A DNA stretch of 64,000 nucleotides from an uncultured Flavihumibacter sp. (GTDB taxonomy: Bacteria > Bacteroidota > Bacteroidia > Chitinophagales > Chitinophagaceae), in the NCBI GenBank assembly GCA_946482545.1, contig CAMLRX010000001.1:1-64000 (forward strand), in the 5' to 3' direction. The notes under the pieces were generated by a model that searched no databases, was not told the origin of the DNA, and was given only the letters and a program-made list of their open reading frames with translations. The position numbers and the translations under genes were made by a program. Shown piece after piece: positions 36,807-59,790 of the stretch. Numbering within the stretch: position 1 is the stretch's first letter; every line of letters begins with the position of its first letter.

Positions 36807-38240
36807 TCATTTTATTACGATAGTAGTGATGCTGTGCGGAGAACTGGTGGTGGGCGCTGCTGTTCCGTTCATCCAAACATGGTATGGTATTTCAAGATCG
36901 GTAGTATTCAGCACCACAACAATTATGCTTCCGTCGGGATTTTGGAATGCCGTTGTTTGCAGTTGTTCGCGGCTGGAAGAACTGATTATGCGCTTCGCAC
37001 CGGGTTTTACGAATTTGGAGAAATGGCCGAGGTAGTAGTAGGAATTGGTATACAATAACTTTCCGTTCTTTGTATCGGCGTGGATGGGCGCGAAACAAAA
37101 ATTCCCTACATGATTGGGACCTCCACGTTCATCGAGGAGGATGTTCCAATCGGTCCAGGCGACGGTGCCATTGTTGAAATCGTTCACCATGGAGGTGCCG
37201 TAACGTTCTCCCAGGCTCCAGTCGTTGATGCGTGAAAGGTCGAATTTTTCTATGCAACCTTCGGTGAATACGAGTTTTTTATCGGGGAAGGATTCGGAAA
37301 CCTGCTTCAGGTTCTGGAACTGCATATTGCCGCCGGTCCAGGTTTCGTACCAGTGGAAGCCGATGCCCCAGATGTAACGTGCGGCGCCATCATCGGACAA
37401 TAAGGTGTTTGCGCGTTGGTAGATCAGGTCGCGGTTATGGTCCCAGGCAATCAGTTTCTTATCTTTCATACCTGCTTTGGACAACGTGGGACCGAGGAAT
37501 TCTTTCACAAAATCACGTTCTTCTTCAGCGGAATAGATGCAGGATTCCCAACGTTGCTTTGCCATGGGTTCGTTCTGCACCGTTAATCCCCAAACGGGTA
37601 TGCCTTGCTGTTCATAGGCATGGATGAACTTCACATAATAGTCCGCCCATGTTTGCCGGAATTCAGCTTTCAGTTTACCGCCCTGCAACATGCTGTTGTT
37701 GGTTTTCATCCATGCGGGCGGACTCCACGGACTTACATACAGATCCAGTTTTCCGGCGGTGGCCATTGCTTTTTTAATGAACGGTATCTTGTACGTTTCA
37801 TCGTGGCGCACATTAAAACTTTTCAGCGCAACATCATTGTCGGTTACATAAGTATAAGATTCGCTGGAGAAATCGCAACTGTTAATGTTCGTTCTCGCCA
37901 ATGTGTAGCCGATGCCTTTTACTGGATCGAAATAGGCGGTGAGTAGTTCCTCTTGTGCCTTGGTTGGTAATTTGGCGAAGGTTTCCGCTGAAGCGTCAGT
38001 AAGCGCGGCACCGATACCGGTGATCTCCTGGAAATGCCTGTTACCGGACACAAACACACAGGGTTGTGTTTCAAGGGGTTGTGGCATGGGTGTGAATTTC
38101 AACGCTGCTGTTTGCTGTAACCGCATCGTTGTATTTTTTGCGGTAGTGAACACCGTTGCCTGTGGTCCCGAATCCTTTTGCTGGGCAAATAATGCCGTTC
38201 CCGCCAGTAAGGCTGCGGGTAAAAAAATGTTCCTGGTCAT
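36807..38240 (-). CDS. GH30 family beta-glucanase/glucosidase (no lipobox)
   Basis: Secreted enzyme of 477 residues from ATG 38240, which opens the signal peptide TRNIFLPAALLAGTALFAQQ; a longer start would run into the upstream GH30 gene. The (beta/alpha)8 barrel plus beta-sandwich is clear: FQEITGIGAALTDASAETF, YVSPWSPPAWMKTNNSM, acid/base Glu224 in LTVQNEPMAKQRWESC and nucleophile Glu327 in LVFTEGCIEKF. Such sequences belong with beta-1,6-glucanase and glucosylceramidase-like members. It is the last gene of the glucan operon, 16 bp behind a second GH30. The probable substrate is beta-1,6-branched glucan. Confidence 0.92.
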   Translation of the reverse strand: MTRNIFLPAALLAGTALFAQQKDSGPQATVFTTAKNTTMRLQQTAALKFTPMPQPLETQPCVFVSGNRHFQEITGIGAALTDASAETFAKLPTKAQEELLTAYFDPVKGIGYTLARTNINSCDFSSESYTYVTDNDVALKSFNVRHDETYKIPFIKKAMATAGKLDLYVSPWSPPAWMKTNNSMLQGGKLKAEFRQTWADYYVKFIHAYEQQGIPVWGLTVQNEPMAKQRWESCIYSAEEERDFVKEFLGPTLSKAGMKDKKLIAWDHNRDLIYQRANTLLSDDGAARYIWGIGFHWYETWTGGNMQFQNLKQVSESFPDKKLVFTEGCIEKFDLSRINDWSLGERYGTSMVNDFNNGTVAWTDWNILLDERGGPNHVGNFCFAPIHADTKNGKLLYTNSYYYLGHFSKFVKPGAKRIISSSSREQLQTTAFQNPDGSIIVVVLNTTDLEIPYHVWMNGTAAPTTSSPHSITTIVIK

Positions 38241-38256
38241 TTGTTGCTGTTTTCCG

Positions 38257-39729
38257 TTACCACACAAAAGTGCCCACGGCCCCGCTATCGAGCGTGACGG
38301 TAACAATTTTTTCGTTGAATTTGATATTGAAGGTTTCTGCAGTATTTGCTTTGTTCAGAACAATAAGCACTTTCCTGCCATCAGGATTTTTGAAAGCCAC
38401 GTTCAGCAAGGCACCGGCGTGATTGGAAGCGATCCGTACTGAACCCGGACGCACGAATTTGGAAGCGTGTGCGATAATGTAATAGGCCACGTTCCTGCTC
38501 ACCGTATTCCCCCCAATCGTTAATGCCCCAAGGCAACTGCTGCAACCTCCGTTTGTAAAAGGGCGGTAATTGGGATCGGCAGCCAGGTTCCATTCCAGCA
38601 CGTTCCTGCTCCAGTTTCTCGTGGCTCCGATGATAAGGTTCTCAATATGCCATTGCAGGTCGTTTCCGAAATTACCGGGACCGCCCACCCATTGTTCCGT
38701 GAAATAAACGGCTTTGTCGGGATGCGCGTTCCGTACCTGCGTAAGCGCGGAAATAGGTCCGCCATACAAATGAAAAGCGGAACCATCCACATATTGTTTC
38801 GCATCGGGATCGTTAAGGATAGCCAATGGATAATCCGGCCGGTCGGCATTATGATCGTAAACGATGATTTTGGTGGAAAGACCTGCGTTCCGGAAAGCCG
38901 GTCCCAGGTGGTTCTTTATAAAATCAGCCTGCTCCGAAGCCTGCATCACCATGCTGGGATTGTTTCCGCCATGCAAAGGTTCATTCTGTGGTGTAATGGC
39001 ATCAATAGTAATGCCTTCGGCCTTCATCGCCTGGATGTATTTCACGAAGTATTTCGCGTAAGCGGCATAATATTCAGGCTTCAGGCTCCCGCCCACAAAA
39101 GCGTTGTTCGTTTTCATCCAGGTGGGTGCGCTCCACGGTGATCCGAGAATTTTGATGGACGGAAACAACGCGGTGATCTTTTTCAAAACGGGAATCAGAT
39201 TGGCCCTTTCGGGATCAATGCTGAATTTGGCTTGGTCCACATCGGTTTGCCCTCCGGGCAGATCATTGTAGGTGAAAGGCGCTGCGCTCAGGTCTGATGC
39301 TCCAATGCTTACACGCAGATAACTTACGCCGATATGTGTACTGTCCCAGGCGAAAAGTTCCTTCAGCAGGTTGTCTTTTTGCGCGACGGGAAGCGCGTTG
39401 ATGAGCGTGGCACTTCCTCCCGTTAAAGTATAACCGAAACCGTCGATAGGCTGAAATTGCTGTGTGGTATCCACTTCAATGGTGGCGTTATTATTGGAGG
39501 CGTTGGCGAATAACAATGCCTGGTTCTGCTTCGCGAACAGCACCGACTGGTCTTTTTTGGTAAGATAAAACGCCACATCGGAGCGAACAGGCACCGGGGG
39601 CGGATTGGGTGTTGGCGTGGTGCCGCCGGTTCCACCCGTTTTTTTGCTGCAACCGCCCGAACAGGCTGCCGACACTGCAAAAGCGACGCACAGTGCCGCT
39701 ATAAGGTATATAGGAGGTTTCCGCTGCAT
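38257..39729 (-). CDS. GH30 family beta-glucanase, probable lipoprotein
   Basis: Enzyme of 490 residues with acid/base Glu250 (DAITPQNEPLHGG) and nucleophile Glu345 (AVYFTEQWVGG). The barrel blocks QPIDGFGYTLTGGSA and ILGSPWSAPTWMKTNNAFVGG fit GH30. The N-terminus (IYLIAALCVAFAVSAAC) ends in Cys23, suggesting lipidation although the lipobox is not canonical. A Gly/Thr/Pro linker (residues 31-48) would hold the enzyme away from the membrane, possibly at the cell surface. It differs clearly from the neighbouring GH30, so the pair probably covers different steps, for example endo at the surface and exo in the periplasm. Confidence 0.92.
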   Translation of the reverse strand: MQRKPPIYLIAALCVAFAVSAACSGGCSKKTGGTGGTTPTPNPPPVPVRSDVAFYLTKKDQSVLFAKQNQALLFANASNNNATIEVDTTQQFQPIDGFGYTLTGGSATLINALPVAQKDNLLKELFAWDSTHIGVSYLRVSIGASDLSAAPFTYNDLPGGQTDVDQAKFSIDPERANLIPVLKKITALFPSIKILGSPWSAPTWMKTNNAFVGGSLKPEYYAAYAKYFVKYIQAMKAEGITIDAITPQNEPLHGGNNPSMVMQASEQADFIKNHLGPAFRNAGLSTKIIVYDHNADRPDYPLAILNDPDAKQYVDGSAFHLYGGPISALTQVRNAHPDKAVYFTEQWVGGPGNFGNDLQWHIENLIIGATRNWSRNVLEWNLAADPNYRPFTNGGCSSCLGALTIGGNTVSRNVAYYIIAHASKFVRPGSVRIASNHAGALLNVAFKNPDGRKVLIVLNKANTAETFNIKFNEKIVTVTLDSGAVGTFVW

Positions 39730-39737
39730 GTGGTTGT

Positions 39738-40583
39738 TTATTTGTCGATCATTTTAAAAACGCGTACATAATCCACTTCCATATTCACGGGCAATACGCC
39801 GGGGTCAATGCCCTGCGCACCGCCCCAATCGCCGCCAAAGGCGATGTTCAGCAGCAGGTGGAATTTCTGGTCGAAAGGCCAGGTTGCGTGTCCTTTGCCT
39901 TCGTTCACATGCTGGAAGAGGAACTGGTTGTCGATGTATCCGCGCACGGCATACGGGGTCCAGTCCACACGGTACACATGAAAATCAGTGGTGGCGGTTT
40001 CGACCATTCGCGTAGCTGTTTTTTGCGTATTGATCTTAAAGTTGTACGCTTCCGTGTGCGTGCTGATGTGCACTTTGTTGAGTTCATAGCCCACATGTTC
40101 CATGATATCTATTTCCCCGGACTTGGGCCATCCGCCGTAAACATAGTCGGTGGGCAGCATCCAGATTGCGGGCCAGGTTCCTTTGCCCGCTGGCAGTTTG
40201 GCTTTTATTTCGAAACGGCCGTAAAGGAAATCCGCTTTTTTGCGGGTAACCATACGGGCAGAAGTGTATTCTCTGCCGCCCATGGTTTCTTTACGCGCGG
40301 TGATGGTGAGTTTACCATCGGCCACCTTCGCGTTGTTGATGGTGTTGGTGTAATACTGCAATTCATTATTGCCCCATCCCGAGCCGCCGATATCGTAATC
40401 CCACTTCGTTGCATCGGGTAAACCGGTATAATTGAATTCATCGGACCAGGAGGGATTGGCCTCGAATGTCCAGCCTTTGTCAACGGGAGCGCCGCCGATG
40501 ATGGTAACGCCCTGGGTTACTTTGCTTTTGCTGGAGCAACCGGCAAGGAGGAGGAAGATGGTGGCGTGGAGAAGGTGTTTCAT
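39738..40583 (-). CDS. GH16 family endo-beta-1,3-glucanase (laminarinase-type) lipoprotein
   Basis: Lipoprotein of 281 residues from ATG 40583, with lipobox LAGC and Cys16; a GTG six codons upstream is less likely. The jelly-roll active site GEIDIMEHVG supplies nucleophile Glu157, Asp159 and acid/base Glu162, in the beta-bulge form of laminarinases. GTWPAIWMLPTDYVYGGWP and HLLLNIAFGGDWGG are also family typical. It is likely the surface endo-enzyme that cuts beta-1,3-glucan for the SusC/D transporter. It lies 8 bp upstream of the first GH30 gene. Confidence 0.95.
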   Translation of the reverse strand: MKHLLHATIFLLLAGCSSKSKVTQGVTIIGGAPVDKGWTFEANPSWSDEFNYTGLPDATKWDYDIGGSGWGNNELQYYTNTINNAKVADGKLTITARKETMGGREYTSARMVTRKKADFLYGRFEIKAKLPAGKGTWPAIWMLPTDYVYGGWPKSGEIDIMEHVGYELNKVHISTHTEAYNFKINTQKTATRMVETATTDFHVYRVDWTPYAVRGYIDNQFLFQHVNEGKGHATWPFDQKFHLLLNIAFGGDWGGAQGIDPGVLPVNMEVDYVRVFKMIDK

Positions 40584-40609
40584 TTTGTTTGTTTTTTTCA
40601 CGCTGCCTC

Positions 40610-41746: not shown

Positions 41747-43261
41747 CTACCGGTATTCTTCGTTCTGAACAAGTTTGGTGTTCTCCAGTTCGAGCAAAGG
41801 AATCGGCAATACTTCATGTTTTCCGGCCACGAATCCTTTGGAGGCCAGCGCAGTTGCGGCCCTTCCCCAGCGTACCAGGTCGAACCAACGGTGCCCCTCA
41901 CCCGCTAACTCCAGTCTTCTTTCGAGCACAATATTATCAAGCGTAAGTGCTACCGGGCCAAGTCCCACGCGGTCGCGTACTTCATTCAGCAAAGCGGCGC
42001 CTCTTGTAAGGTTACCACCGGAGCCACGGAGTATGGCTTCTGCTTCCAGCAGATAGGTATCTGCAAGACGAATCTCGTACATATTCTGCGGGAAGTTCAG
42101 CTCCATGGCACCTCCGCCGGTGGAACGGTTCGACTGGCGACCGATGAATTTCTCCAGGAAGTAACCGGTATTGTTGTAACCGGGCGTATAGTCGGCGATA
42201 CCATTGGCTTTCAGGCTATCCAGGTTGGCAATGGTGGCATTGTACCGGGGATCGAAATGGATGGCGTTGAAGAGGCCTGGCGTTACTACGAGAAAGCTCC
42301 AGCCTGAAACATAGTCCGGTGCACCGGGCGTAAGTGGCGAATAACCACGGGGACCAGTCATGATGCTCAGTACATTGCCCTCGGTGCAGGCGATACAACC
42401 CCAGTCGCCGGAAGAAGTGCTGGTATAACCTATCTCGAAAATGGACTCGGTATTGAATTTGTTGTTCGACTTCCAGAGGTCACTGAAATTATCGAGGAGT
42501 TTATACCCGTATTGGCTTGTTCCACCCGGTGTCCCGTTCACTACGGCAAATTCGGCAGCCGCGTCGTTGAAGCGTTCGAGTTGCAGGTACACTTTACCCA
42601 GCAAGGCATGGGCGATGCCCTGCGTCATTCTTCCCCCTTCGGTAGCGGCAGGCACTGTGGGCGGAAGGTCGGGGATCGCTTCCTGCATATCTTTTACAAT
42701 CTGCGCATATACGTCTGCGGGAGCCGCTTGTGTAACGTTGTACATATCGGAAGCGGGTACCGGTTCGGTGAAGAGGGGCACGTTTTTGAACAGGCGCACC
42801 AGGTCGAAATAGAAATACCCACGCAGCAGTTTTGCCTCGGCGATGTATCGTTTTTTCAGGGTTTCATCCATCGGCACGTCATTCATTTTCTGCAAAAGGA
42901 TGTTTGCACGGAATACGCCTGAGAAGCCTTTCCGCCACAACTCGCCCTGCGGGCCACGATCGGGACTGAGTGTGTAGTTCGACCACAACTGGAGATCATT
43001 CACATCCGTAGCGTTACCGCCCCCTGCGAGGTGGTCATCGGAAGCGGCATCCAGCGCATTCACTTTAGTAACGAGTCCACCCCCGGTCCAGCCCACCACA
43101 TCGTACACAGCAACGAGTCCGTTATAAGCTTCGGTTGCATTGCGGTAATAGTTCGATTCCAGGTTCAGTCCTTTTGGTTCCACTTCCAGGAATCCTTTGC
43201 TGCAGGAACCCAAACCAAGCGTTCCCAAAGCAAGTGTTGTATATAGAAGGAATTTGTTCAT
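41747..43261 (-). CDS. SusD/RagB family glycan-binding lipoprotein (beta-glucan locus)
   Basis: Outer-membrane lipoprotein of 504 residues with lipobox LGSC near the start and the N-terminal FLEVEPKGLNLESNYYRNATEAYNGLVAVYD. TPR-like helices (AEAKLLRGYFYFDLVRLFKNVPLFTEPV, HALLGKVYLQLERFNDAAAEF) and the terminal VLERRLELAGEGHRWFDLVRWG are diagnostic. It forms the lid of the adjacent SusC transporter, 30 bp upstream, and binds the oligosaccharide before import. Confidence 0.97.
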   Translation of the reverse strand: MNKFLLYTTLALGTLGLGSCSKGFLEVEPKGLNLESNYYRNATEAYNGLVAVYDVVGWTGGGLVTKVNALDAASDDHLAGGGNATDVNDLQLWSNYTLSPDRGPQGELWRKGFSGVFRANILLQKMNDVPMDETLKKRYIAEAKLLRGYFYFDLVRLFKNVPLFTEPVPASDMYNVTQAAPADVYAQIVKDMQEAIPDLPPTVPAATEGGRMTQGIAHALLGKVYLQLERFNDAAAEFAVVNGTPGGTSQYGYKLLDNFSDLWKSNNKFNTESIFEIGYTSTSSGDWGCIACTEGNVLSIMTGPRGYSPLTPGAPDYVSGWSFLVVTPGLFNAIHFDPRYNATIANLDSLKANGIADYTPGYNNTGYFLEKFIGRQSNRSTGGGAMELNFPQNMYEIRLADTYLLEAEAILRGSGGNLTRGAALLNEVRDRVGLGPVALTLDNIVLERRLELAGEGHRWFDLVRWGRAATALASKGFVAGKHEVLPIPLLELENTKLVQNEEYR

Positions 43262-43291: not shown

Positions 43292-46200
43292 TTAGAAAGA
43301 AAGGTTCACGCCTGCCATGAAGGAGCGTGCCTGGGGGTAGAATCCACGGTCGATACCTGCACCTGATCCACCGCCGATCTCAGGATCGTACCCAGAATAT
43401 TTGGTGAAGGTGACGAGGTTCTCGCTCATCAGGTACACCCGGGCACGTGCCAGTCCGGCTTTGCGGATCAGGGCAGCGGGCAGCGAGTAGCCGATCTGCA
43501 ATACTTTGATGCGGAAATAGTCGCCGTCTTCAAGGTAGAAATCAGAAGGGTTGGTGAAGTTGTTGTTCCTGTCGTCTCTTGTCAAACGGGGGTAGCTGTT
43601 GGTGGAACCTTCGCCTGTCCAGCGTCCCAGGGCTTTGCGCTGCCAGTTGGCTTCCTGCACTTCGAGCCTGCGCAGTCCCTGGTAGATTTTGTTTCCTGCG
43701 CCACCCTGTCCGAACAGCACCAGGTCGAATCCTTTGTAAGCCGCGTTGAGGGTCATGCCGTAAGTCACGGTGGGCAATGCGTTGCCGAGGATCATGCGGT
43801 CGTTCTCATTGATTACGCCGTTGCCGTCCACATCTTTCCAGCGGAAATCGCCGGGCACTGCGTTGGGTTGAATTTTTCGGCCATCTTTGTCCACGTAGGC
43901 ATCAATCTCTTCCTGGTTCTGGAAGATGCCCATGGTTTTGAACCCAAAGAAAGAGTTGAAAGGCTGTCCGATAATGGACCTTGTAATCGGATAGGTGGTA
44001 GTTTGAACGGTTTGCTGGTTGGTGGTGGAGAAAAGAATGCCATCTCCGAGGTAGGTGATTTTGTTTTTATAATGGGAAATGTTTCCGTTCAGAGAAAGAT
44101 CAAATTCACCCAGTCTTCTGCGGTAGCCGAGTTCCAGTTCCAATCCTGTATTCTCCATATCCGCCACATTGGCCGCAGGATTGGAGATGGCGCCTACATA
44201 CCCGGGGATGCGTGGGTTCATGAGGATGCCGACGGTTTTCTTTTTGAACCAATCGAAGGCTACAGTAAGGTTATTCACCAATGTTGCGTCAAAACCGATA
44301 TTGGTCTGGCGGGTTTCTTCCCATTTCAGGTTGGGGTTAGCCGGTGCGTTTGGACTGTACCCAATCAGGTAGCTGCCGCTGGTTCCGAAAGCATAACTTC
44401 TGCCACTGCCTATCGTGGATACGTAAGCGAAATCACCAATCTCATCGCTACCAACAACGCCGTAACCACCGCGCACCTTTAAGAAGTTCACCACATCTGT
44501 TGCGGGGAAGAAAGATTCTTTGGTGGCCACCCATCCCATGGAGAAAGATGGGAACACGCCGTATTTGTTGTTGGAGCCGAAGCGGGAAGAACCATCCCTT
44601 CTAACCAACGCCTGCACCAGGTATTTTTCTCCGTAATCGTAGTTCAACCTTGCGAAGAGAGAACTCACATAATGTTCCTGGCTTTCGCTGCCGCCGGATA
44701 CTTTCTGATCGGCGGGCACATTGAAGTTGAGGGAAGCATCATCGAAATTATCCGCGGGAATATTGAAATAAGTAACGTTAACATTCCGGGAAATGCCGTC
44801 TGAGTAAGCGCCTTGTCCAACGAGCAGGGTGAGGTTATGTTCCCCGAAACCTTTGGTGTAAGAAGCGGTATTTTCCAGGTTCCAGCGGAGGTTCCTGTTG
44901 GAGCCTCGGTTGTAGGAAGTTTGCGAGGTCACCACGGTAGGTTTGAGCCATGCCAGTGGGGAGAAACTTTCACCGCCCCAGAAGGAGAGTTTGCCGCCCA
45001 GTGTGGAGCGTAGTTTTAATCCTTTGATGGGTTCGGCTTCCAGGAAAGCGTTGCCGATGAGGTTATCGCTCCAGCCATAGTTGCCGAGCCGCGTTTGGAT
45101 GTACGCGAGCGGATTGGTGAACTCCTGGCCTACGATCTGGGGAATGGCATAAGGATTCCCGAACTGGTCGCGCCGGATGCCTGCACCGTTCATGTTACCT
45201 GGCGTGGGCAGGTAAGGTGCCATGGCGAGTTTGGCGGGGTCGGTTTCAATTACGGGTGTAATGGGATCCAGGTTGATGGCGGAACTGAGTGGACCACCGA
45301 ATTCACTGTTGGTATTGCCGATGCCCAGCGTTTTTTCATACGCATAGCCGAGGTTTTGACCGAAAGTGATCCAGGAAGCAAGTTTATGGGTAGAATTCAG
45401 GCGGAAGTTGAGCCTTTTGAATTTAGAGATATCGGTAGCCACGATACCTTCCTGGTTGAAGTAGCCGAAGGAAGCGAAGTAAGTAGAACGCTCGTTTCCG
45501 CCGGATATACTGAGTTCGTGGGTCTGACGGCGGGCACTGTTGTTGAAGATCACGTCCTGCCAGTCGGTGCCTTCACCATAAATAGTTGGGTCGGCGAAAG
45601 GCTTTGCCTGTCCGGCGGCTACGGCAGCTTCATTGCGGAGCGTCGCGTATTCGGTGGCATTGAGCAGGTCGAGTTTGCGGGTGGGCGCCTGGATACCATA
45701 GTAACCATGGTAATTGACGCGGAGCGCACCGGATTTTCCGCGCTTGGTGGTCACCAGGATCACCCCGGCGGCAGCACGTGCGCCATAAATAGCCTGAGAG
45801 GAGGCATCTTTCAGTACTTCAATGGATTCGATATCGCTCTGGTTGAGGTAGCCGATGCCGCCATTGTCCACTACCACACCATCCACTACCCAAAGGGGGT
45901 TGTTGTTGTTGAAAGAGGTGATGCCACGCACCCGAACGGTAGCGCCCGCACCGGGCTGGCCGTTATTGGTGGCGATGGTGACCCCTGAAGTACGTCCCTG
46001 TAACGATTGTTCTATTCTGTTCAGGGGCATGTTTTCCAGATCGGAGGCCTTCACGCTGGAGATGGCCCCGGTTACCACACTTTTTTTCTGGGTGCCATAT
46101 CCCACCACCACTACTTCATTCATATTGGTGGCATCGGCATCGTTCATGACAATACTCACTTTTCCATCTGCCGGAACGGTTACTTCCTGGTCGAGCATAC

Positions 46201-46444
46201 CCAGGTGGGAAACGACCAGTACTGTACCGGTTTTCGGAACGGATATGCTGAAGTTGCCTGACTCATCTGTAACGGTAGCGAATTCAGTACCTTTTATTTT
46301 TACGGTAGAACCCGGCAAGGGGTCGCCGGTTGTTTTTGCAGTCACCTTTCCCGAGGCAGTTTTGCGTTCCTGGGCGGAAGCATGGAAGAAGGCGCACTGA
46401 AGCAAGAGAAAAATGCTTAATGGAAGCAACGTTTTCAATTTCAT
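43292..46444 (-). CDS. SusC-like TonB-dependent glycan transporter (beta-glucan locus)
   Basis: Outer-membrane barrel of 1050 residues from ATG 46444; a TTG two codons upstream is less likely. The signal peptide (MKLKTLLPLSIFLLLQCAFFHASAQ) is followed by a carboxypeptidase-regulatory-like domain, the NEVVVVGYGTQKKSVVTGAIS TonB-box region and plug (LQGRTSGVTIATNNGQPG, ASSQAIYGARAAAGVILVTTKRG), and the barrel ending in GVNLSF. There is no STN domain, consistent with control by the SusR-like regulator rather than by FecR/sigma signalling. It is the first gene of the operon SusC-SusD-binding protein-GH16-GH30-GH30. Confidence 0.97.
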   Translation of the reverse strand: MKLKTLLPLSIFLLLQCAFFHASAQERKTASGKVTAKTTGDPLPGSTVKIKGTEFATVTDESGNFSISVPKTGTVLVVSHLGMLDQEVTVPADGKVSIVMNDADATNMNEVVVVGYGTQKKSVVTGAISSVKASDLENMPLNRIEQSLQGRTSGVTIATNNGQPGAGATVRVRGITSFNNNNPLWVVDGVVVDNGGIGYLNQSDIESIEVLKDASSQAIYGARAAAGVILVTTKRGKSGALRVNYHGYYGIQAPTRKLDLLNATEYATLRNEAAVAAGQAKPFADPTIYGEGTDWQDVIFNNSARRQTHELSISGGNERSTYFASFGYFNQEGIVATDISKFKRLNFRLNSTHKLASWITFGQNLGYAYEKTLGIGNTNSEFGGPLSSAINLDPITPVIETDPAKLAMAPYLPTPGNMNGAGIRRDQFGNPYAIPQIVGQEFTNPLAYIQTRLGNYGWSDNLIGNAFLEAEPIKGLKLRSTLGGKLSFWGGESFSPLAWLKPTVVTSQTSYNRGSNRNLRWNLENTASYTKGFGEHNLTLLVGQGAYSDGISRNVNVTYFNIPADNFDDASLNFNVPADQKVSGGSESQEHYVSSLFARLNYDYGEKYLVQALVRRDGSSRFGSNNKYGVFPSFSMGWVATKESFFPATDVVNFLKVRGGYGVVGSDEIGDFAYVSTIGSGRSYAFGTSGSYLIGYSPNAPANPNLKWEETRQTNIGFDATLVNNLTVAFDWFKKKTVGILMNPRIPGYVGAISNPAANVADMENTGLELELGYRRRLGEFDLSLNGNISHYKNKITYLGDGILFSTTNQQTVQTTTYPITRSIIGQPFNSFFGFKTMGIFQNQEEIDAYVDKDGRKIQPNAVPGDFRWKDVDGNGVINENDRMILGNALPTVTYGMTLNAAYKGFDLVLFGQGGAGNKIYQGLRRLEVQEANWQRKALGRWTGEGSTNSYPRLTRDDRNNNFTNPSDFYLEDGDYFRIKVLQIGYSLPAALIRKAGLARARVYLMSENLVTFTKYSGYDPEIGGGSGAGIDRGFYPQARSFMAGVNLSF

Positions 46445-46467
46445 ATGCAAGCGTTTGTTTGGTTAAT

Positions 46468-46505: not shown

Positions 46506-46618
46506 TAAAAGTAGGTCACTATTCCCCTTTCCGTCAGAAAAACACCACCTCAATACCACATCAATTACCTCAAAAACACCTGAAAAACGGCCATTTCACC
46601 ACCTCAATACCACATCAA
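46506..46618 (-). promoter_or_regulatory. SusC promoter with two tandem-half-site operators
   Basis: Read on the minus strand, two identical 22-bp sites (46597-46618 and 46543-46564) each consist of TTGATGTGGTA followed by TTGAGGTGGTG, that is two 11-bp direct half-sites. Their starts are 54 bp apart. The proximal site ends 29 bp before TACTTTTA (46506-46513), a good -7 element; no TTTG lies in the usual -33 window. The same arrangement occurs upstream of GH5. The pattern is that of an activator site overlapping the -33 region, probably for the divergently encoded SusR-like regulator. Confidence 0.75.
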
Positions 46619-46654
46619 CTGAAATGAAATGGTTTTCATTTCCGGAATGCTAAA

Positions 46655-48418
46655 CTAATCTAGTTGAAAACTGAGCGATTTGAGGTTGAAGCCTCCGGAC
46701 TCCGCCAGTATCCTCAGCGCCTGTTCCCCTTCTGGTATTTCTATTCCGGGCAGGGTTACTGTCTGCCATTTGTGGTGCCCACCCGTAGCGGGAATGGCGA
46801 TGGAACCCAGTTTACCCGAACCGTTCAGCAGCGCCAGCCTTCCCCCATGCTTTTCTGCGGCCACTTCCAGTTTGATGGTGTATTTCCTGTTTTGCGGTAC
46901 ACGTACTGTGTATTGCCACCACTCCCCTGGCTCAGTATGACTGATGTAGACCTGGTTGGTATCCGGATCCCGGCTGATGTCTGCTCCATCGTTCCTGTAG
47001 GTACGTCCCTTGTTCCCACCGCGGGCACCACCATCGGCGATGTGGTAATCTGCAGTGTCCACATCATAATAAGCGTAGCCATTTCTACCGAGGTCGTAGT
47101 CTGAAGCATTGATTTTCAGGCCATTTACCAACTCATTCTTTTGAAAAGGAAGGGTTTGGGTGGAGAAAGGCTGCCGGATCATGGCATCCACCACATCAGC
47201 ATGAAAAATGTTGTTTTTAAGTTTCAGGTCGTTGGCCAGCGCCAGCAATCCTTTTGTGGCGGTCTCTTTTTCCGGACGGTCTCCTTCCCCGTTCCAATAG
47301 CGGACAACCTCATCATATCCGGGATTGGATCTGATTTCCAGCGGATTATTGCTGCCCAACTTTTTTAAGGGCCACCATGCCCATCCGATGTTGTGGGTTT
47401 CCAGCAGGTGAATGGCTTCTGTGAACCAAACATTTGAGTTCTCTCCCGTTTCACCAAGCCATACAGGCACATTGTGCTTTTCCCGGGTGTCCAGGATATG
47501 CTGGATATCGGCCTGGCGGTTGTGGTTCCAGTATTTGTGGAAACTGAGGGCCATGTTTTTGTCCCAAACCGGGAGGATATTGTTGTAGTTGTTGCCCCAA
47601 CCATTTCCTTCGATGATGATGAGGTGTTTTTTATCCACTTCGCGGATGGCCCTTGTAATATCCACCATCAGTTTGCGGAGGGGTTCGTTCTTCTTTTCTT
47701 TCAATCCGTTTTTATCATTTACGGGATCTTCGAAACCATAGTTGGGTTCATTAATGATGTCGTAGGCGCCGATCCAGGGTTCATTGGCGTAGCGTTGGGC
47801 CAGTTTGCGCCAGAGCGCGACCGTTTTGCGCTGGTTCTCCTGGCTGTGCCAGAGCATAGGTTTAGACAAATCTCCGTCGGAGATGTTCAGGTCGTTGCCT
47901 TGTCCGCCGGGAGCAGCGTGCAGGTCGAGGATCAGGTACAGTTGGTTGGCCCTGCACCAGGCGAGCAGACTGTCGGTGAGCCGGAAGCCTTCTTTCAGCC
48001 AGGTATCTTTTCCTTTAATGGGTTCTTTTTCAATGGGTAAAGTGTAGAGATTATAATGCATAGGAAGGCGTACTGAGTTGAACCCCCAGGCTTTCAGGGA
48101 ATCTATATCCGCACGGGTGGTGTGGTTGTTCAGCCAGGCCTGGTAAAAAGTTCCGGTATTTTCCTTCCCAATCAGTTCTTCCATGCGGGAACGGATCTTG
48201 TTTTGCTGACCATCTTTATAAATGCGCAGCATATACCCTTCCTGCAGCATCCATCCGCCGAGGCCTATCCCCTTCAGGAGAACGTTCTCCCCTTTTTCAT
48301 TAACGATCCGCTGACCATCGGCCCTTAGATAGCCCTGGGCGAAAATGCCGGAAGAAGTACAAAAAATTAAAAGCAGTGAAGCGAGGAGTCTGGCGTTTTT
48401 TTGAAGCATCGTGTGCAT
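46655..48418 (-). CDS. GH5 family beta-glucanase with C-terminal CBM6-like domain
   Basis: Secreted enzyme of 587 residues; ATG 48418 is chosen, with ATG 48409 close behind and a TTG upstream less likely. The signal peptide is LLASLLLIFCTSSGIFAQ. The GH5 barrel has NEKGENVLLKGIGLGGWMLQEGYM, the acid/base Glu224 in YDIINEPNYGF and nucleophile Glu323 in VWLGETGENSNVW. Residues about 455-587 (NQVYISHTEPGEWWQYTVRVPQNRKYTIKLEVAAEKHGGRLALLNGSGKLGSIAIP) are a CBM6-like module. It has its own copy of the operator/promoter seen before SusC, so it is co-regulated though not in the SusC operon. Confidence 0.92.
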   Translation of the reverse strand: MHTMLQKNARLLASLLLIFCTSSGIFAQGYLRADGQRIVNEKGENVLLKGIGLGGWMLQEGYMLRIYKDGQQNKIRSRMEELIGKENTGTFYQAWLNNHTTRADIDSLKAWGFNSVRLPMHYNLYTLPIEKEPIKGKDTWLKEGFRLTDSLLAWCRANQLYLILDLHAAPGGQGNDLNISDGDLSKPMLWHSQENQRKTVALWRKLAQRYANEPWIGAYDIINEPNYGFEDPVNDKNGLKEKKNEPLRKLMVDITRAIREVDKKHLIIIEGNGWGNNYNNILPVWDKNMALSFHKYWNHNRQADIQHILDTREKHNVPVWLGETGENSNVWFTEAIHLLETHNIGWAWWPLKKLGSNNPLEIRSNPGYDEVVRYWNGEGDRPEKETATKGLLALANDLKLKNNIFHADVVDAMIRQPFSTQTLPFQKNELVNGLKINASDYDLGRNGYAYYDVDTADYHIADGGARGGNKGRTYRNDGADISRDPDTNQVYISHTEPGEWWQYTVRVPQNRKYTIKLEVAAEKHGGRLALLNGSGKLGSIAIPATGGHHKWQTVTLPGIEIPEGEQALRILAESGGFNLKSLSFQLD

Positions 48419-48453
48419 TTGAAGAAGTGGCAATGAATCGATTTCCGATGCTG

Positions 48454-48566
48454 CTAAACTAGCCCCTCACCGTTTAAAAACGGTTTTTTCCACCACTTCA
48501 ATACCACATCAAAAAGTGAAAACACCGTATAAATGCCGTTTTTTCACTACATCATTACCACATCAA
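48454..48566 (-). promoter_or_regulatory. GH5 promoter with two tandem-half-site operators
   Basis: On the minus strand the distal site (48545-48566) reads TTGATGTGGTA then ATGATGTAGTG, and the proximal site (48491-48512) TTGATGTGGTA then TTGAAGTGGTG. They start 54 bp apart, and the proximal site ends 29 bp before TAGTTTAG (48454-48461). All three spacings equal those of the SusC promoter. The sites lie between GH5 and the divergent regulator gene, so they may also influence the regulator's own promoter. Confidence 0.75.
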
Positions 48567-48607
48567 TCAAATTTTCCTACCTTTCCTTCGCCATAAATTG
48601 ACTGAGG

Positions 48608-51478
48608 ATGAGAAAATTCTTTTCCGTGGTTTGTTTCTTTTTATTGCTGAAAGGAACAGCCCAAAATACGATTGCGCTTCCCGAAATCATCAACTATACC
48701 AGGGAGGCTTCCAATTCCGGGACCCAGAACTGGAAGATTGGCCAGGATAAACTGGGGATCATGTACTTCGCGAACAACGAGGGACTGCTCAGTTTTGACG
48801 GCAGCAACTGGAAAAAGTATCCCCTTCCCAACGAAACCATCGTCCGCTCCCTGGCCATCGCCGAAGACGGCCGCATCTACATCGGCTCTCAGAGTGAATT
48901 CGGTTATTTTCACCCCGATCAAAACGGGATACTCAGTTATACCTCTATCAAAGTACCCAATACCGAAAAAGACTTTGCCGACATCTGGGATGTGATCCCC
49001 ATCGGACCCAAAGTGTTTTTCCGCGCCCACCGCAAACTTTTTATGTACAGTAGCGGTAAAGTGACCGCCTACGACGCGAAAAACTGGAACTTCATGGGGT
49101 ACGCGAATGGCAACCTCATCGCCCACGAGATCGAAAAAGGCATGCTCCGTTTCCACGATGGGGTGTGGAAACCCTTCCTGGAAAAAGGGGCGCTTCCCCC
49201 TAACGCACGCATCACCTCTTTTACAGCCATCTCCAAAGACAGCGCCCTGCTCACTACCCTCCGGCATGGTATGTTCATCCTCCGGCAGAACGAACTCACT
49301 CCATTTAATACACCCACCACACAAAAGATCGCGGAAGAAAACATCTACGCTTCTACCATGATCAGCGCCGATAAAATCGCCGTGGCCACCAATATGGCCG
49401 GCTGCTTCATCATTAATAAAAAAGGGGAATTCATCCAGCGACTTTCCAAACAGGATGGGCTCCAGAACAACAACGTCCTCTCCATCTTCACCGATAAGGA
49501 CCAGAACCTGTGGATCGGCCAGGACAATGGCATCGACCTCGTAGCCTATAACCAGGCCATCAAACATATTTACCCCGACAACCAGGAGCACAGCGCCGGT
49601 TACTCCGCGTTGATCCATCAGAACAACCTCTACATCGGCACTTCCCGCGCCTTGTTCAAAGCGCCGCTTCAACCCGGCGGGGACCTGAGTTTTGTGCACA
49701 GCAGTTTCAACCCCGTGGCCAATAGTAAAGGGCAGGTATGGAGCCTCGCGGAAATTAACGGTCACCTGCTGATGGCGCACAACGAAGGCGCATACGTGGT
49801 GGAAAATAATGCCGCCATTCCTTTTGATGTAAGCACCGGATTCTGGACCTTCTTCCCCTTATCCAACCTCTCCCCTTCGGAAGGCGTGGCCGCGGGCACC
49901 TACAACGGGATGAATTTTTACCACTACAAAAATGGGAAGTTCACCTATACAAACACCCAAACATTTTTTGAATCGGCCCGCTTTATCGGGGTGGAAAAGA
50001 ATATGGCCTGGGTGGCACACCCCTACAAGGGCCTCTACAAAGTATCGCTCGACAATGGTGTTCATCCCACCAATACAACTTACAAAGACCGGGGAAAGAT
50101 ATTGTCGCAAAACCGGAACTTCATTTACAAGGTAAAGAACAGGATCATCCTTTCCAGCGACAACGGTCTCTTTGAATACAATACCGCCAAAGGCGATTTT
50201 GAACCCTCGGCCTATCTCCGCGGTATCTTCGGTCCAATCTCCGTTCAATACCTGAAAGAAGACGAAACAGGAAACATCTGGTTCGTATCCGACAAAAGGC
50301 TGGGTGTAGTGGAATTCATCCAGGAAAAACCACGCATCACCTTTCTCCCTGAGCTCAACAACAAAGTAATGGCCAACGGGTATGAACACATCTACCCCTA
50401 CAACAACCAGAACATTTTTGTAGCGGGCGAACAGGGATTCTACCATATCAATTACGACCTCTACAAAAAGGACCGGGAACAACTCACCGTACTCATCAGC
50501 ACGGTGAAGACCCTGGGCAACAGAGACAGTACGGTTTTTGGCGGATACCAGGCTTCTTCAGGTACACCAAAGCTCCATTACAACCAGAACTCCCTTCACT
50601 TCGATTTCGTTTCTCCCCTGCATGGTCAGCAGGACAATATCGAATACACGTATTACCTGAAGGATTTTGATAAAGCATGGAGTACCTGGTCTAAAAAACG
50701 TGAAAAGGAATACACCTATCTCCCGCCAGGCACCTACACTTTTATGGTGAAGGCGCGCAGGTTCGAGGGCGAAGAGTCGCCGGTGCAAAGTTTCAGGTTC
50801 GTGGTACTGCCACCCTGGTACCGTACCGCCTGGGCCTATCTGGTATATGCGCTTATCGCACTCGCGGCTTTGTATGCGGGGCACAAATGGCAGCGCCGCA
50901 AATTCATCCGGCAACAGGAGCGCCACGCGGAAGAACAGAAAAAACTACAGTACCTGCACCAGCTTGAACTGGAAAGAAATGAGAAAGAGATCATTCGTCT
51001 CCGCAACGAAAAACTCGAAGCCGAAATACAATTGAAAAACACGGAACTCGCTTCCACCACCATGAACCTGGTGCAGAAAGGAGAAATGCTGCACAAGGTG
51101 AAAGAAGAGTTTCAGAAACTCAAGAAAACCGATAACAAGGAAACCTCCGATGAAGAATACAAAAAAATCATGCGGATGCTGGAGGAACACAAACTCCGGA
51201 ACGACTGGGAACAATTCGCCGTACACTTCGACAAGGTGCACAGCGATTTCCTGGTATCCTTAAAAGAACATTATCCCAGGCTAACGCCCAGTGAACTGAA
51301 GCTATGCGCCTACCTCCGGCTGAACCTCTCCAGCAAAGAGATCGCGCAGATCATGAACATCACCATTAAAAGCGTGGAACTGAGCAGGTACCGGTTGCGG
51401 AAGAAACTGGGCATCCCGGGCGAGATCAGTTTGTTCAACTTTTTACTGGATTTCCATTCGACCGCAAATGCAGTATAG
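48608..51478 (+). CDS. SusR-like membrane sensor-regulator (Reg_prop/Y_Y_Y/LuxR HTH)
   Basis: Inner-membrane regulator of 956 residues. The signal peptide (RKFFSVVCFFLLLKGTAQ) precedes a large periplasmic region of Reg_prop beta-propeller repeats (GIMYFANNEGLLSFDGSNWKKYPL, DKDQNLWIGQDNGIDL). A triple-tyrosine domain (YTYYLKDFDKAWSTWSKKREKEYTYLPPGTYTFMVKAR) precedes one membrane helix at about 738-757 (AWAYLVYALIALAALYA). A coiled coil (about 765-860) leads to a C-terminal LuxR-type HTH (about 893-940, LTPSELKLCAYLRLNLSSKEIAQIMNITIKSVELSRYRLRKKL). There is no kinase or receiver domain, so it is a one-component sensor that binds DNA from the membrane. Its place beside the glucan genes and the shared operators make it their probable activator. 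Confidence 0.9.
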   Translation: MRKFFSVVCFFLLLKGTAQNTIALPEIINYTREASNSGTQNWKIGQDKLGIMYFANNEGLLSFDGSNWKKYPLPNETIVRSLAIAEDGRIYIGSQSEFGYFHPDQNGILSYTSIKVPNTEKDFADIWDVIPIGPKVFFRAHRKLFMYSSGKVTAYDAKNWNFMGYANGNLIAHEIEKGMLRFHDGVWKPFLEKGALPPNARITSFTAISKDSALLTTLRHGMFILRQNELTPFNTPTTQKIAEENIYASTMISADKIAVATNMAGCFIINKKGEFIQRLSKQDGLQNNNVLSIFTDKDQNLWIGQDNGIDLVAYNQAIKHIYPDNQEHSAGYSALIHQNNLYIGTSRALFKAPLQPGGDLSFVHSSFNPVANSKGQVWSLAEINGHLLMAHNEGAYVVENNAAIPFDVSTGFWTFFPLSNLSPSEGVAAGTYNGMNFYHYKNGKFTYTNTQTFFESARFIGVEKNMAWVAHPYKGLYKVSLDNGVHPTNTTYKDRGKILSQNRNFIYKVKNRIILSSDNGLFEYNTAKGDFEPSAYLRGIFGPISVQYLKEDETGNIWFVSDKRLGVVEFIQEKPRITFLPELNNKVMANGYEHIYPYNNQNIFVAGEQGFYHINYDLYKKDREQLTVLISTVKTLGNRDSTVFGGYQASSGTPKLHYNQNSLHFDFVSPLHGQQDNIEYTYYLKDFDKAWSTWSKKREKEYTYLPPGTYTFMVKARRFEGEESPVQSFRFVVLPPWYRTAWAYLVYALIALAALYAGHKWQRRKFIRQQERHAEEQKKLQYLHQLELERNEKEIIRLRNEKLEAEIQLKNTELASTTMNLVQKGEMLHKVKEEFQKLKKTDNKETSDEEYKKIMRMLEEHKLRNDWEQFAVHFDKVHSDFLVSLKEHYPRLTPSELKLCAYLRLNLSSKEIAQIMNITIKSVELSRYRLRKKLGIPGEISLFNFLLDFHSTANAV

Positions 51479-53089: not shown

Positions 53090-54088
53090 ATGCAGAAAAA
53101 AACCTCCTTAAAAGATATCGCTCAACTGGTGGGTGTTTCCACCGCGCTCGTGTCTTATGTGTTAAACAACAGGAAGGAAGGCCGGATAAGCCGTGAAGTG
53201 GCGCAGAAAATAAGAGCTGCGGCGGCGGCCCTGAATTACCGGCCCAACCAGGCGGCCAGGAGCCTGAGAAGCAGCAAAACGCTCACCATCGGATTGATCG
53301 TGGCCGATATCGCCAACCCCTTCTCGGCATCGCTGGCACGCATCATTGAAGACGAAGCAGACCTACAGGGTTATACGGTGATCTTCGGCAGTTCCGATGA
53401 AAACCCTGAAAAATTCAATAAGCTGCTCGAGGCATTGCTCAACAGGCAGGTGGACGGGCTTATTCTTTCCCCGCCGCAAAATTCAGAAAAAGCCCTGCAG
53501 GCACTCGTGGAACAGAAAACCCCATTCGTATTGCTGGACCGCTATTTTTCGAGCATCACAGCCGATACCATCTGCCTAGATAACCACGCAGCCACCAACG
53601 CCGCAGTGCAACACCTCCTGCAACAACAGAAAACCCGCATTGGCATGATCGCTTACCGCACCACGCTGGAACACCTGCAGGATCGGAAGAACGGGTACAT
53701 CGACGCACTGAAAACTGCCGCCATCCCTTTTAACCCATCTTTCCTGAAAGAGATTGATATTGTTGTGACGGAAGAAGCGGTAGAGCAGGCAATAAACGAA
53801 CTGCTGCTATTACAGGAACCACCGGAAGCCATTATCTGCGCCTCCAACCTCATCGCCACCAAAGCGCTGAAGTTGTTGCGATGGAAGTACCGTAACACTT
53901 CTTCGCTACCCGAAATTTTGGGCTTCGATGAAACGGACCTCTTTCATTTTGTGGATCCGCCACTTACGTACATCAGGCAACCGTTGGTAGAGATGGGCAG
54001 AAAGGCCACTCACCTACTGCTGGAGCAGATGAATGACCGTTCAGAAAGAGCCAGGGTTTTCGTAAAGGGCGAGTTAATAACAGGGTAG
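53090..54088 (+). CDS. LacI family transcriptional regulator
   Basis: Cytoplasmic repressor-type regulator of 332 residues. The HTH and hinge (KTSLKDIAQLVGVSTALVSYVLNNRKEGRISREVAQKIRAAAAALNYRPNQAARSLR) occupy residues 3-60, followed by a periplasmic-binding-protein-like effector domain (TIGLIVADIANPFSASLARIIEDEADLQGY, GLILSPPQNSEKALQ, ILGFDETDLFHFVDPPLTYIRQP). The effector sugar is unknown. Neighbouring genes that could be targets are the phosphoesterase/SusD/SusC operon, which converges on it, and the short Gfo/Idh-like gene that shares its promoter region. Confidence 0.95.
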   Translation: MQKKTSLKDIAQLVGVSTALVSYVLNNRKEGRISREVAQKIRAAAAALNYRPNQAARSLRSSKTLTIGLIVADIANPFSASLARIIEDEADLQGYTVIFGSSDENPEKFNKLLEALLNRQVDGLILSPPQNSEKALQALVEQKTPFVLLDRYFSSITADTICLDNHAATNAAVQHLLQQQKTRIGMIAYRTTLEHLQDRKNGYIDALKTAAIPFNPSFLKEIDIVVTEEAVEQAINELLLLQEPPEAIICASNLIATKALKLLRWKYRNTSSLPEILGFDETDLFHFVDPPLTYIRQPLVEMGRKATHLLLEQMNDRSERARVFVKGELITG

Positions 54089-54100
54089 TATAAACGAAGA

Positions 54101-55033
54101 TTAATCGGTTGTTTTTTCTACGTTCCATCCATAATCAACATACCGCCAGGAGATGTTCTCTCCGTTGATATCGAACAACATAAATCCTTCTTCGGTATAT
54201 CTTTTTCCTTTCCAGGAAAATCCGGAAACCGCACCACCTGTAATGAAACGGGTTTTACCGAACACCAGGATATCTTCCTGCCAATGTAAATGTCCCTGCA
54301 ATACGAGCCGGAGGTTGTGCCTGGAGAAAAGATCGAACACTTCTTTCCGGTTGCTGATGTGCAAGCCTTCCGGACTTCTGCCCGCTCCGGAAGGCGGATA
54401 GAACTGGTGGAAGGTGGACATCAGCGGGATGTGTACGGTAATCACAACGGGTGTGGTGGTATCTGTTTTAGCCAGTTCTTCTTTTATCCAATCCAGCTGT
54501 TCCTTTCCGATCACACCTCTGTATTCTTTCTTATTGTTCACATCGATAGAGTTCAGGACGAAGAATTTCCATCCTTTGTGGGAGAAGGAATACCAGGATT
54601 TTCCGAGGTATCTTTCGAACATACCCCATTTGTAATCGGGATGTGTGGAGTCCACATCGCTTTCTTCGTAGATGCCGAACAGTTCGTGGTTTCCGATGCA
54701 GTTGTGCACCGGCATTTTAAAGCCCGCGCTCATTTTTTTATAGAGCGAGAACAGGGTATCGGCACGTTTCTGGTTGCCGCGCATCACATCAAAAACCAGG
54801 TCTCCGCCGGTAAGTACGAAATCGGGTTTTAACCTGTTCACGGAGTCGATGGCGATCGCGAATGCTTTGGGCGCACCGGCTTCGGGTTTGATGTGGATAT
54901 CTGTCAGGAACGCAAACTTAAATTTACCTGGTTTTTCTTTGGTTGATCCATTGACCGATTGTGCGGAAACGATGGCGGGCAGCAGCATACATGCAACCGC
55001 AGCCAATATTTGATTGAAAAAAAATCTGTACAT
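54101..55033 (-). CDS. Secreted calcineurin-like metallophosphoesterase
   Basis: Exported protein of 310 residues (signal peptide FFFNQILAAVACMLLPAIVSAQ). The dimetal motifs are complete: FLTDIHIKP, LTGGDLVFD, NCIGNHELFG, ITVHIPLMS and LQGHLHW. It should hydrolyse phosphate mono- or diesters in the periplasm or at the surface. It lies 18 bp downstream of a SusD gene in the FecR-SusC-SusD operon, so a phosphorylated substrate taken up by that SusC/D pair is suggested. The substrate is not known. Confidence 0.93.
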   Translation of the reverse strand: MYRFFFNQILAAVACMLLPAIVSAQSVNGSTKEKPGKFKFAFLTDIHIKPEAGAPKAFAIAIDSVNRLKPDFVLTGGDLVFDVMRGNQKRADTLFSLYKKMSAGFKMPVHNCIGNHELFGIYEESDVDSTHPDYKWGMFERYLGKSWYSFSHKGWKFFVLNSIDVNNKKEYRGVIGKEQLDWIKEELAKTDTTTPVVITVHIPLMSTFHQFYPPSGAGRSPEGLHISNRKEVFDLFSRHNLRLVLQGHLHWQEDILVFGKTRFITGGAVSGFSWKGKRYTEEGFMLFDINGENISWRYVDYGWNVEKTTD

Positions 55034-55051
55034 AATATCTGAATGAAATGA

Positions 55052-56728: not shown

Positions 56729-56766
56729 AACACACAAGTTGAGTGTAGTAATTTGAAATGGTTCAT

Positions 56767-59700: not shown

Positions 59701-59790
59701 AAACCCGAGCGCCACCAGCAACAGGCGCGTGTTTCTGAAACGGATGGGCAATAGATGTCCCTTAGCCCTTTTCCGGCTTTTTGGTATCAT
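56767..59790 (-). CDS. SusC-like TonB-dependent transporter (second locus)
   Basis: Outer-membrane receptor of 1007 residues. After an unusually basic leader (MIPKSRKRAKGHLLPIRFRNTRLLLVALGFIFSSAATAQ) the mature protein begins directly with the carboxypeptidase-regulatory-like domain (ARVKGLVEDESGQPLEGITIAM), then NDVVVVGYGKQKRKDITGAVV and the plug (VIQGAIPGVMIQQTQAG, DASAAAIYGSRGSNGVIIVSTKAG). The barrel closes with KKWVLGLTIGL. No STN signalling domain is present although the gene is 18 bp behind a FecR gene. Confidence 0.95.
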   Translation of the reverse strand: MIPKSRKRAKGHLLPIRFRNTRLLLVALGFIFSSAATAQVASARVKGLVEDESGQPLEGITIAMKEPGKDSARNTVTNGKGMFEFTLKEKGNYTFTASGIGFAEQVLTRRNVDLSKDEALLFVMKPLAASLNDVVVVGYGKQKRKDITGAVVKVPESRFEKVPNLNIAQVIQGAIPGVMIQQTQAGAASQESILIRGRNSILASNAPLIVLDGAPYSGQLRDINVNDIASMEVLKDASAAAIYGSRGSNGVIIVSTKAGVKGKTQITYDGRTSFQQYTKLPETMSATEFYAFKEIREPGKLTTTELDNYNEGKFVNWADLALREGRAQQHNLSTSGAIGQANFYIGGGVLDVKGLSVTDQYKRYSGRINLDVKVTPWLLLGSRNQFTFENQDGAAIDYNLVFRKNPLINPYDPSGNVSIYPWPEFQDIRNPLEPINILDKDRSFQLVTNNFAELNFPFLEGLSYRLNTGVRRKYADAASYAGRNTKLGLEARGVANTSEFREVNDLVEHILSYNRRFSKHNIFATLLYSYERNQFTGNSLQGQGFSNDFLTWYAMAQAEQLVPEYNFSRTVLLSQMARLNYGFDDRYLFTFTGRRDGFSGFGAATKWGFFPSLAAAWNISNENFFQSASFVQLLKLRVSYGLNGNQAVNAYESISRLGEENTVAGSQTQPGFVPIKLGQDNLGWETTRSLNAGLDFAVFNERLSGTVNMFRSNTEDLLLNRTISSVQGISSITQNIGKTRNTGLELQLNAQLFKSKHLSWSAFGNFSTVRNRIVALYGQLNENGTELDDLVNAWFIGKPILVNYDYAWAGVWQTHEAQEAAAWGSKPGYVKLLDADANGKLTGDDRQVIGQQDPKFSWGFGNTVRWKALQLDFFLYGMHGMTRVNGQMADAPVSSEVRRNTIRKNWWTDQNPTNEWYKNEVNANIMGGISSSVYENAGFMRVKDITVSYDLPAPLLSSAGMRQCRAYFSARNQFTFTQWRGMDPELLDGRGAIPLQKKWVLGLTIGL

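Follow-up and report, generated by a model that had tools for sequence, protein, structure and literature searches.

Paired 22-bp boxes at the SusC and GH5 promoters as a candidate operator of a membrane-anchored LuxR-type regulator in Chitinophagaceae

The locus and its four 22-bp boxes

The window, i.e., the entire 64-kb stretch of DNA analyzed in this study, harbors a putative glucan locus in which genes for SusC- and SusD-like proteins, a GH5 glucanase, a GH16 enzyme, and two GH30 enzymes are encoded on the minus strand, divergently from a regulator gene (Table 1). Within the GH30 pair (36807-39729), one enzyme is similar to BT3312, the endo-1,6-beta-glucanase of entry 5NGK (PMC5481569), and the other is closer to GH30 chains such as 2wnw; starting the first frame at its TTG makes the two overlap by 50 bp. 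As far as it is described in the relevant parts of PMC5481569, the 1,6-beta-glucan locus of Bacteroides thetaiotaomicron likewise comprises a regulator (BT3309, of the SusR type), a SusCD pair, and a GH30 enzyme, whereas the locus in the window has a GH5-CBM6 enzyme, a GH16 enzyme, and a second GH30 enzyme. We infer that the substrate is a fungal-type beta-1,6/1,3-glucan. Farther along, at positions 53090-59790, a gene for a LacI-type regulator is found together with another SusC/SusD pair and a metallophosphoesterase; none of the four 22-bp sites described below lies there. An Rfam scan of the window returned zero matches.

Table 1. Coordinates of genes, boxes, and promoter elements at the locus
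Feature	Position	Strand	Basis or occurrence
GH30 enzyme, second	36807..38306	-	
GH30 enzyme, best solved match 5ngk	38257..39729	-	
GH16 enzyme, same locus and strand	39738..40601	-	
SusD-like protein, downstream of SusC	41747..43261	-	
SusC-like TonB-dependent transporter, candidate target gene	43292..46450	-	
-7-like element TACTTTTA, SusC promoter, gap 29	46506..46513	-	same gap at SusC genes of 11 further loci
Proximal box, SusC promoter, TTGATGTGGTATTGAGGTGGTG	46543..46564	-	sequence; also G040
Distal box, SusC promoter, two tandem 11-bp half-sites, TTGATGTGGTATTGAGGTGGTG	46597..46618	-	arranged alike in the near relative G040
GH5 glucanase with CBM6/35 module, candidate target gene (first ATG 48418)	46655..48433	-	
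-7-like element TAGTTTAG, GH5 promoter, gap 29	48454..48461	-	gap 29 in 51/62 loci
Proximal box, GH5 promoter, TTGATGTGGTATTGAAGTGGTG	48491..48512	-	sequence; G040; relatives' loci
Distal box, GH5 promoter (regulator-proximal box), TTGATGTGGTAATGATGTAGTG	48545..48566	-	sequence; G040; relatives' loci
-7-like element TACCTTTC, regulator's own promoter, 11 bp from regulator-proximal box	48578..48585	+	relatives
Regulator, 956 aa, divergent from GH5	48608..51478	+	Pfam domains, hydrophobicity
LuxR/GerE HTH of regulator (residues 892-938), recognition helix ITIKSVELSRYR	51281..51421	+	Pfam

The regulator begins with a signal-peptide-like start, followed in order by a Reg_prop propeller, a Y_Y_Y domain, and one hydrophobic membrane segment (residues about 740-758), beyond which 198 residues contain a coiled-coil-like stretch and the LuxR-type helix-turn-helix (HTH). 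Judged by domains and hydrophobicity only, this is the layout of the SusR family (periplasmic sensor, membrane segment, C-terminal HTH). Pfam matches were confined to Reg_prop, Y_Y_Y, GerE, and a weak Sigma70_r4_2 overlap; a histidine kinase, a receiver, or an AraC-type HTH, as in hybrid two-component systems, was not found among them. In NCBIfam, residues 759-946 matched BT3442_fam weakly (25.6 bits versus a cut-off of 940). The DNA-binding domain of SusR has been described as resembling no other known domain (main-text parts of PMC3878776), whereas the regulator in the window has a Pfam LuxR/GerE HTH. Relatives of its C-terminal part include Chitinophagaceae, e.g., Sediminibacterium ginsengisoli and Niastella, and the homolog in the near relative G040 is 98% identical. 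The window thus probably derives from a member of this family.

All four 22-bp sites were present on the minus strand, base for base, at the coordinates given in a preliminary description of this DNA. Each consists of two tandem 11-mers, and the two SusC-promoter boxes are identical 22-mers. The distances that had been claimed were confirmed on the sequence as well: sites start 54 bp apart in the SusC and GH5 promoters alike, and the end of the proximal site is separated from a -7-like element by 29 bp in both. A degenerate 22-mer pattern matched at the four sites only within the window. The 11-mer TTGATGTGGTA had 44 matches with up to 2 mismatches (shuffle mean, 16.9; largest, 34; n = 100 shuffles), and it occurs without mismatch only four times, as the first half of each of the four sites. 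The half-site consensus is WTGATGTRGTR.

Rarity and conservation of the box pairs

A motif search across the genome had been suggested as a check on whether the repeat occurs widely. In the 4.8-Mb genome of G040, the window pattern with up to 3 mismatches matched four places, all within this locus and with both site pairs 54 bp apart as in the window, and the reversed pattern matched none (0 versus 4 forward). The repeat is therefore not widespread in this genome. Using a broader pattern and allowing 2 mismatches at most, we detected 35 sites in 18 of 22 genomes (18 matches for the reversed pattern), 23 of which were at the regulator locus and 12 away from it. Ten of the latter were inspected. 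Three lay in SusC-like frames at a DDVVVIGYG stretch; the same 22 bases account for a fifth, unrelated match that the broader pattern added in G040. Two others formed one pair in genome G086, 62 bp apart and with TAATTTTA at gap 29. The remaining five had no second strong site nearby, and four of these were inside some open frame. The extra pair (G086:C1:4497884-4497967; L151, L160) is located away from the regulator loci fetched from that genome.

A strong homolog of the regulator was found in 153 of 394 genomes of the family. From these, 100 loci were taken in protein-score order, which together with the window yielded 101 loci chosen by regulator homology. A site was called if at least 18 of 22 positions matched in the 400 bp upstream. 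On the strand of the divergent target gene, a site was present in 71 of 101 loci, as scored with a consensus drawn from the window and from loci that are among the 101 tested; shuffled sequences gave a mean of 0.2 loci. No locus (0/101) had a site on the opposite strand within 400 bp, none (0/101) had one on either strand of the coding control, and a clear site within 400 bp was absent from 30 of the 101. Reversed upstream regions scored in 61 of 101 loci. Since WTGATGTRGTR is nearly its own mirror image, reversed-pattern controls are weak, and our conclusions therefore draw on comparisons with shuffles, with coding stretches, and with the opposite strand.

The spacing of the boxes was likewise conserved. 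With the partner box allowed anywhere between 21 and 149 bp, a spacing of 53-55 bp was found in 58 of 70 loci, 43/44 bp in 4, and other values in 8. After collapsing at 60% regulator identity, the corresponding numbers were 16 of 23 clusters, 2, and 5; this unrestricted count replaces an earlier value of 18/20 clusters obtained with only five spacings admitted. Conservation amounted to 0.53 bits per base in the spacer versus 1.2-1.45 bits in the boxes. The operator-like architecture proposed in the preliminary description is thus conserved next to regulators of this class in related loci, and its geometry is retained there as well. In a de novo search for 11-bp repeats with long spacing among the 38 loci without an admitted pair, no locus whose recognition helix is of the VET type exceeded the shuffled maximum of 40. 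The site-poor VE[ILV] loci L059, L073, L121, L125, L131, L133, and L136 did exceed the shuffled maximum, and they carry TGATGTAGT-like repeats.

Distances to the -7-like elements and link to the recognition helix

Of 62 loci with an admitted pair (five spacings allowed) and enough sequence, 51 had a TAnnTTTG-like element at gap 29 (5 or 6 of 6 bases matching; shuffle mean, 0.77; maximum, 5). The -7 element had played no part in choosing the box pairs. By 60%-identity clusters, gap 29 was found in 16 of 20. Of 18 chosen loci, 15 had a second pair located farther than 600 bp from the regulator, and L041, L093, and L102 had none. In the window, in G040, and in 10 further loci (L039, L070, L076, L080, L085, L086, L090, L095, L097, and L116), this second pair has a spacing of 53-54 bp, precedes a SusC gene, and has a -7 element at exactly 29 bp. 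The SusC genes behind these second pairs are at least 56% identical to that of the window (99% in G040). L069 and L071 have a second pair with gap 29, for which no downstream gene was read, and the second pair of L135 has a spacing of 44 bp and no -7 element at 29.

The divergent promoter of the regulator was associated with the boxes as well. In 38 of 63 loci, its own -7-like element, commonly TACTTTC, follows the regulator-proximal box at a distance of 10-12 bp (shuffle mean, 2.1; maximum, 7). Because this distance is kept, we regard the boxes as one operator set between two divergent promoters. In 9 of 10 loci with the helix VELGRHR, a TAnnTTAG element was found at 27-28 bp and not at 11 bp, and self-limitation of the regulator therefore need not be general.

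The preliminary description had further pointed to the lack of TTTG in the -33 region as a sign of activation. Neither 29-bp gap contains TTTG, so the observation itself stood; its interpretation did not. TTTG at a 19- to 22-bp spacer was found in 4 of 60 operator promoters and in 0 of 48 other intergenic TAnnTTTG elements of the same loci. As other promoters in these loci lack TTTG too, its absence is no evidence for an activator, and we rejected it as a signature of activation. For Flavobacterium johnsoniae it has been reported that no -33 motif could be identified (PMC7366714). In several loci the gap contains a weak TGTAG about two helical turns past the last half-site; this may be a fifth, degenerate half-site close to -33.

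Could the boxes be a structural or selfish repeat, or the product of a recent duplication, with no regulatory role? The identical 22-mers of the two SusC boxes would fit this explanation. We nevertheless consider it extremely improbable: the geometry is kept in most clusters while the spacers are less conserved, the distance to the -7 element is fixed, and the genome of the near relative has only four copies of the window pattern.

The half-site covaried with the recognition helix. With TIK-VEL-type helices (15 loci), base 8 of the half-site is G in 95%; with SVRG-VEI-type helices (48 loci), it is A in 81%. Among loci with a VE[ILV] helix, 71 of 76 had a site no farther than 600 bp away, as did 1 of 24 with a VET helix; one further locus was cut off in the HTH. 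Both contrasts count loci without correction for shared ancestry; the TIK-VEL group may be one lineage, and base 8 may therefore reflect one event. The VE[ILV]/VET contrast is moreover confounded with having a divergent SusC neighbor: by ORF calling, 8 of the 24 VET loci have a divergent neighbor, most VET regulators have no SusC gene next to them, and L106, alone among the VET loci in having a divergent neighbor of SusC size, carries a site. Helices of VET loci such as L046, L050, L051, L053, and L058 read VETSRYR or VETGRYR, and these loci mostly do not face SusC. G040 encodes two full-length proteins of the regulator's kind, the second of which (49% identity) has a VET helix and no site upstream.

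The covariation also bears on whether another DNA-binding protein uses the boxes, such as an AraC-type hybrid two-component system or the LacI-family protein encoded at 53090. In favor of this reading, the LacI-family gene lies about 4.5 kb away in the window, and the near relative has three frames of ~1,400 aa with matches to the regulator's residues 650-805. However, LacI operators are inverted repeats and the boxes are direct repeats. Across the 101 loci, which were picked by the 48608-type regulator, the boxes adjoin this regulator, and base 8 varies with its helix. Predicted sites of hybrid two-component systems have an average spacing of 21 bp (main-text parts of PMC3878776). Another binder is thus very unlikely.

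The rule was also followed into a wider set of 41 homologs (40 further loci and L001). Six of them (L170-L174 and L177) reached 18 of 20 core matches and exceeded their own shuffles; the rest were negative or weak. L170, L171, and L174 (36-43% identity) keep a spacing of 53-55 bp and gap 29. L172 and L173 have a spacing of 53-54 bp, a -7 element at 32, and a TGTAGTG-type half-site, and L177 has a spacing of 44 bp and no -7 match at 29. L198 and L202 (30-31% identity), which have a GH30 gene nearby, show a different repeat upstream of SusC: two copies of GATGTGTTTTTGTA are separated by about 33 bp, and 84-87 bp upstream there is a related site. Since most wider homologs were negative or weak, the operator rule, as judged from sequence, belongs to a clade and is not phylum-wide.

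Proposed mechanism and relation to known operators

We consider it likely, with a probability of roughly 0.8, that the four sites represent a single operator present in two copies, through which the regulator encoded at 48608 would activate GH5 and SusCD and maybe limit itself. The operator would consist of two 22-bp boxes about five helical turns apart on one DNA face, each composed of two head-to-tail 11-bp half-sites. The regulator is predicted to be a one-component inner-membrane protein whose periplasmic propeller would sense a glucan oligosaccharide, with one membrane helix and a coiled coil coupling the propeller to the cytosolic LuxR-type HTH. In the most likely arrangement, one box would be occupied by both HTHs of a dimer, and the two boxes by a pair of dimers. 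The promoter-proximal box would lie just upstream of the -33 place, i.e., in the position of an activator that contacts sigma/RNA polymerase. At the GH5-regulator divergence, the operator would sit 11 bp from the -7-like element of the regulator and cover its -33 region. From this position, the operator in its bound state should turn on GH5 and SusCD, and it may hold back the regulator gene.

The same regulator might instead bind the boxes to repress its targets, with glucan relieving repression. One operator does serve two divergent promoters, the regulator-side box would overlap the -33 region of that promoter, and LuxR-type regulators can act as repressors. The GH5 and SusC boxes, however, are wholly upstream of the polymerase site with a fixed gap of 29 bp, which is an activator position. 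SusR has been shown to activate its operons (main-text parts of PMC3878776), and in the BT3309 locus pustulan raised bt3314 10-fold and other genes ~100-fold, but did not induce the regulator gene (as given in parts of PMC5481569). Hence, repression is unlikely, and activation by the divergent regulator remains the preferred reading.

The preliminary description knew of no operator of this form; long-spaced direct repeats had, however, already been predicted in 2013 for four SusR-like regulators of Bacteroides, with 67 or 77 bp between centers, and same-face DNA binding by dimers was inferred (Ravcheev et al. 2013, main-text parts of PMC3878776). These operators, a prediction by footprinting, and those described here have in common two conserved boxes on the same strand, a long unconserved spacer, and membrane-anchored regulators of polysaccharide utilization loci (PULs). 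Boxes in the window lie upstream of SusC/SusD and glycosidase genes, which are candidate targets of the adjacent regulator. In contrast to the 67 or 77 bp in Bacteroides, the spacing is 54 bp in the window and 53-55, less often 43/44, and once 62 bp here in general. Sub-repeats of 11 bp, a fixed 29-bp gap, and a position between promoters are features of the present operators that the main-text parts of PMC3878776 do not mention for the Bacteroides ones. The operators of hybrid two-component PUL systems are likewise direct repeats upstream of SusC-type genes, but they have a 21-bp average spacing, and their regulators have an AraC-type DNA-binding domain as well as receiver and kinase domains (same parts of PMC3878776).

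Our literature search, which covered only a minority of subscription journals, found no report of boxes spaced 53-55 bp apart, of 11-bp sub-repeats, of a constant gap of 29 bp, or of an operator placed between two promoters, and no experimentally defined operator for SusR or propeller-LuxR PUL regulators; the SusR mechanism has been described as remaining undefined (parts of PMC6874557). Long-spaced direct repeats had thus been predicted before for SusR-like regulators, and the spacing class of 53-55 bp and the regulator's own -7-like element near the other box appear to be new.

At the level of the single box, the closest likeness is to the PhoB box, which is also 22 bp long, made of two head-to-tail 11-bp half-sites, and located just upstream of the polymerase site. 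PhoB, however, is a soluble response regulator of another HTH family, and its unit is not known to include a second box five turns upstream, whereas the operator in the window has such a box and a membrane-anchored candidate regulator with a LuxR-type HTH.

More tentatively, at somewhat less than even odds, a single rule may hold for this regulator clade within the Chitinophagaceae. Two boxes with four tandem LuxR-HTH half-sites in total, near-whole turns apart (five, less often four, once six), would be placed at a fixed 29 bp from the -7 element of the glycan gene and 10-12 bp from that of the regulator. A membrane-anchored protein would hold the DNA at the inner membrane with four HTHs, switch the glycan genes on, and throttle itself, TIK-VEL reading GTGGT and SVRG-VEI reading GTAGT. 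The natural variants of helix and half-site would then form a series for a recognition code, and the operator geometry offers a direct design for tests of binding and phasing. The fixed distance between operator and -7 element would make target promoters and start sites predictable from sequence across many Chitinophagaceae.
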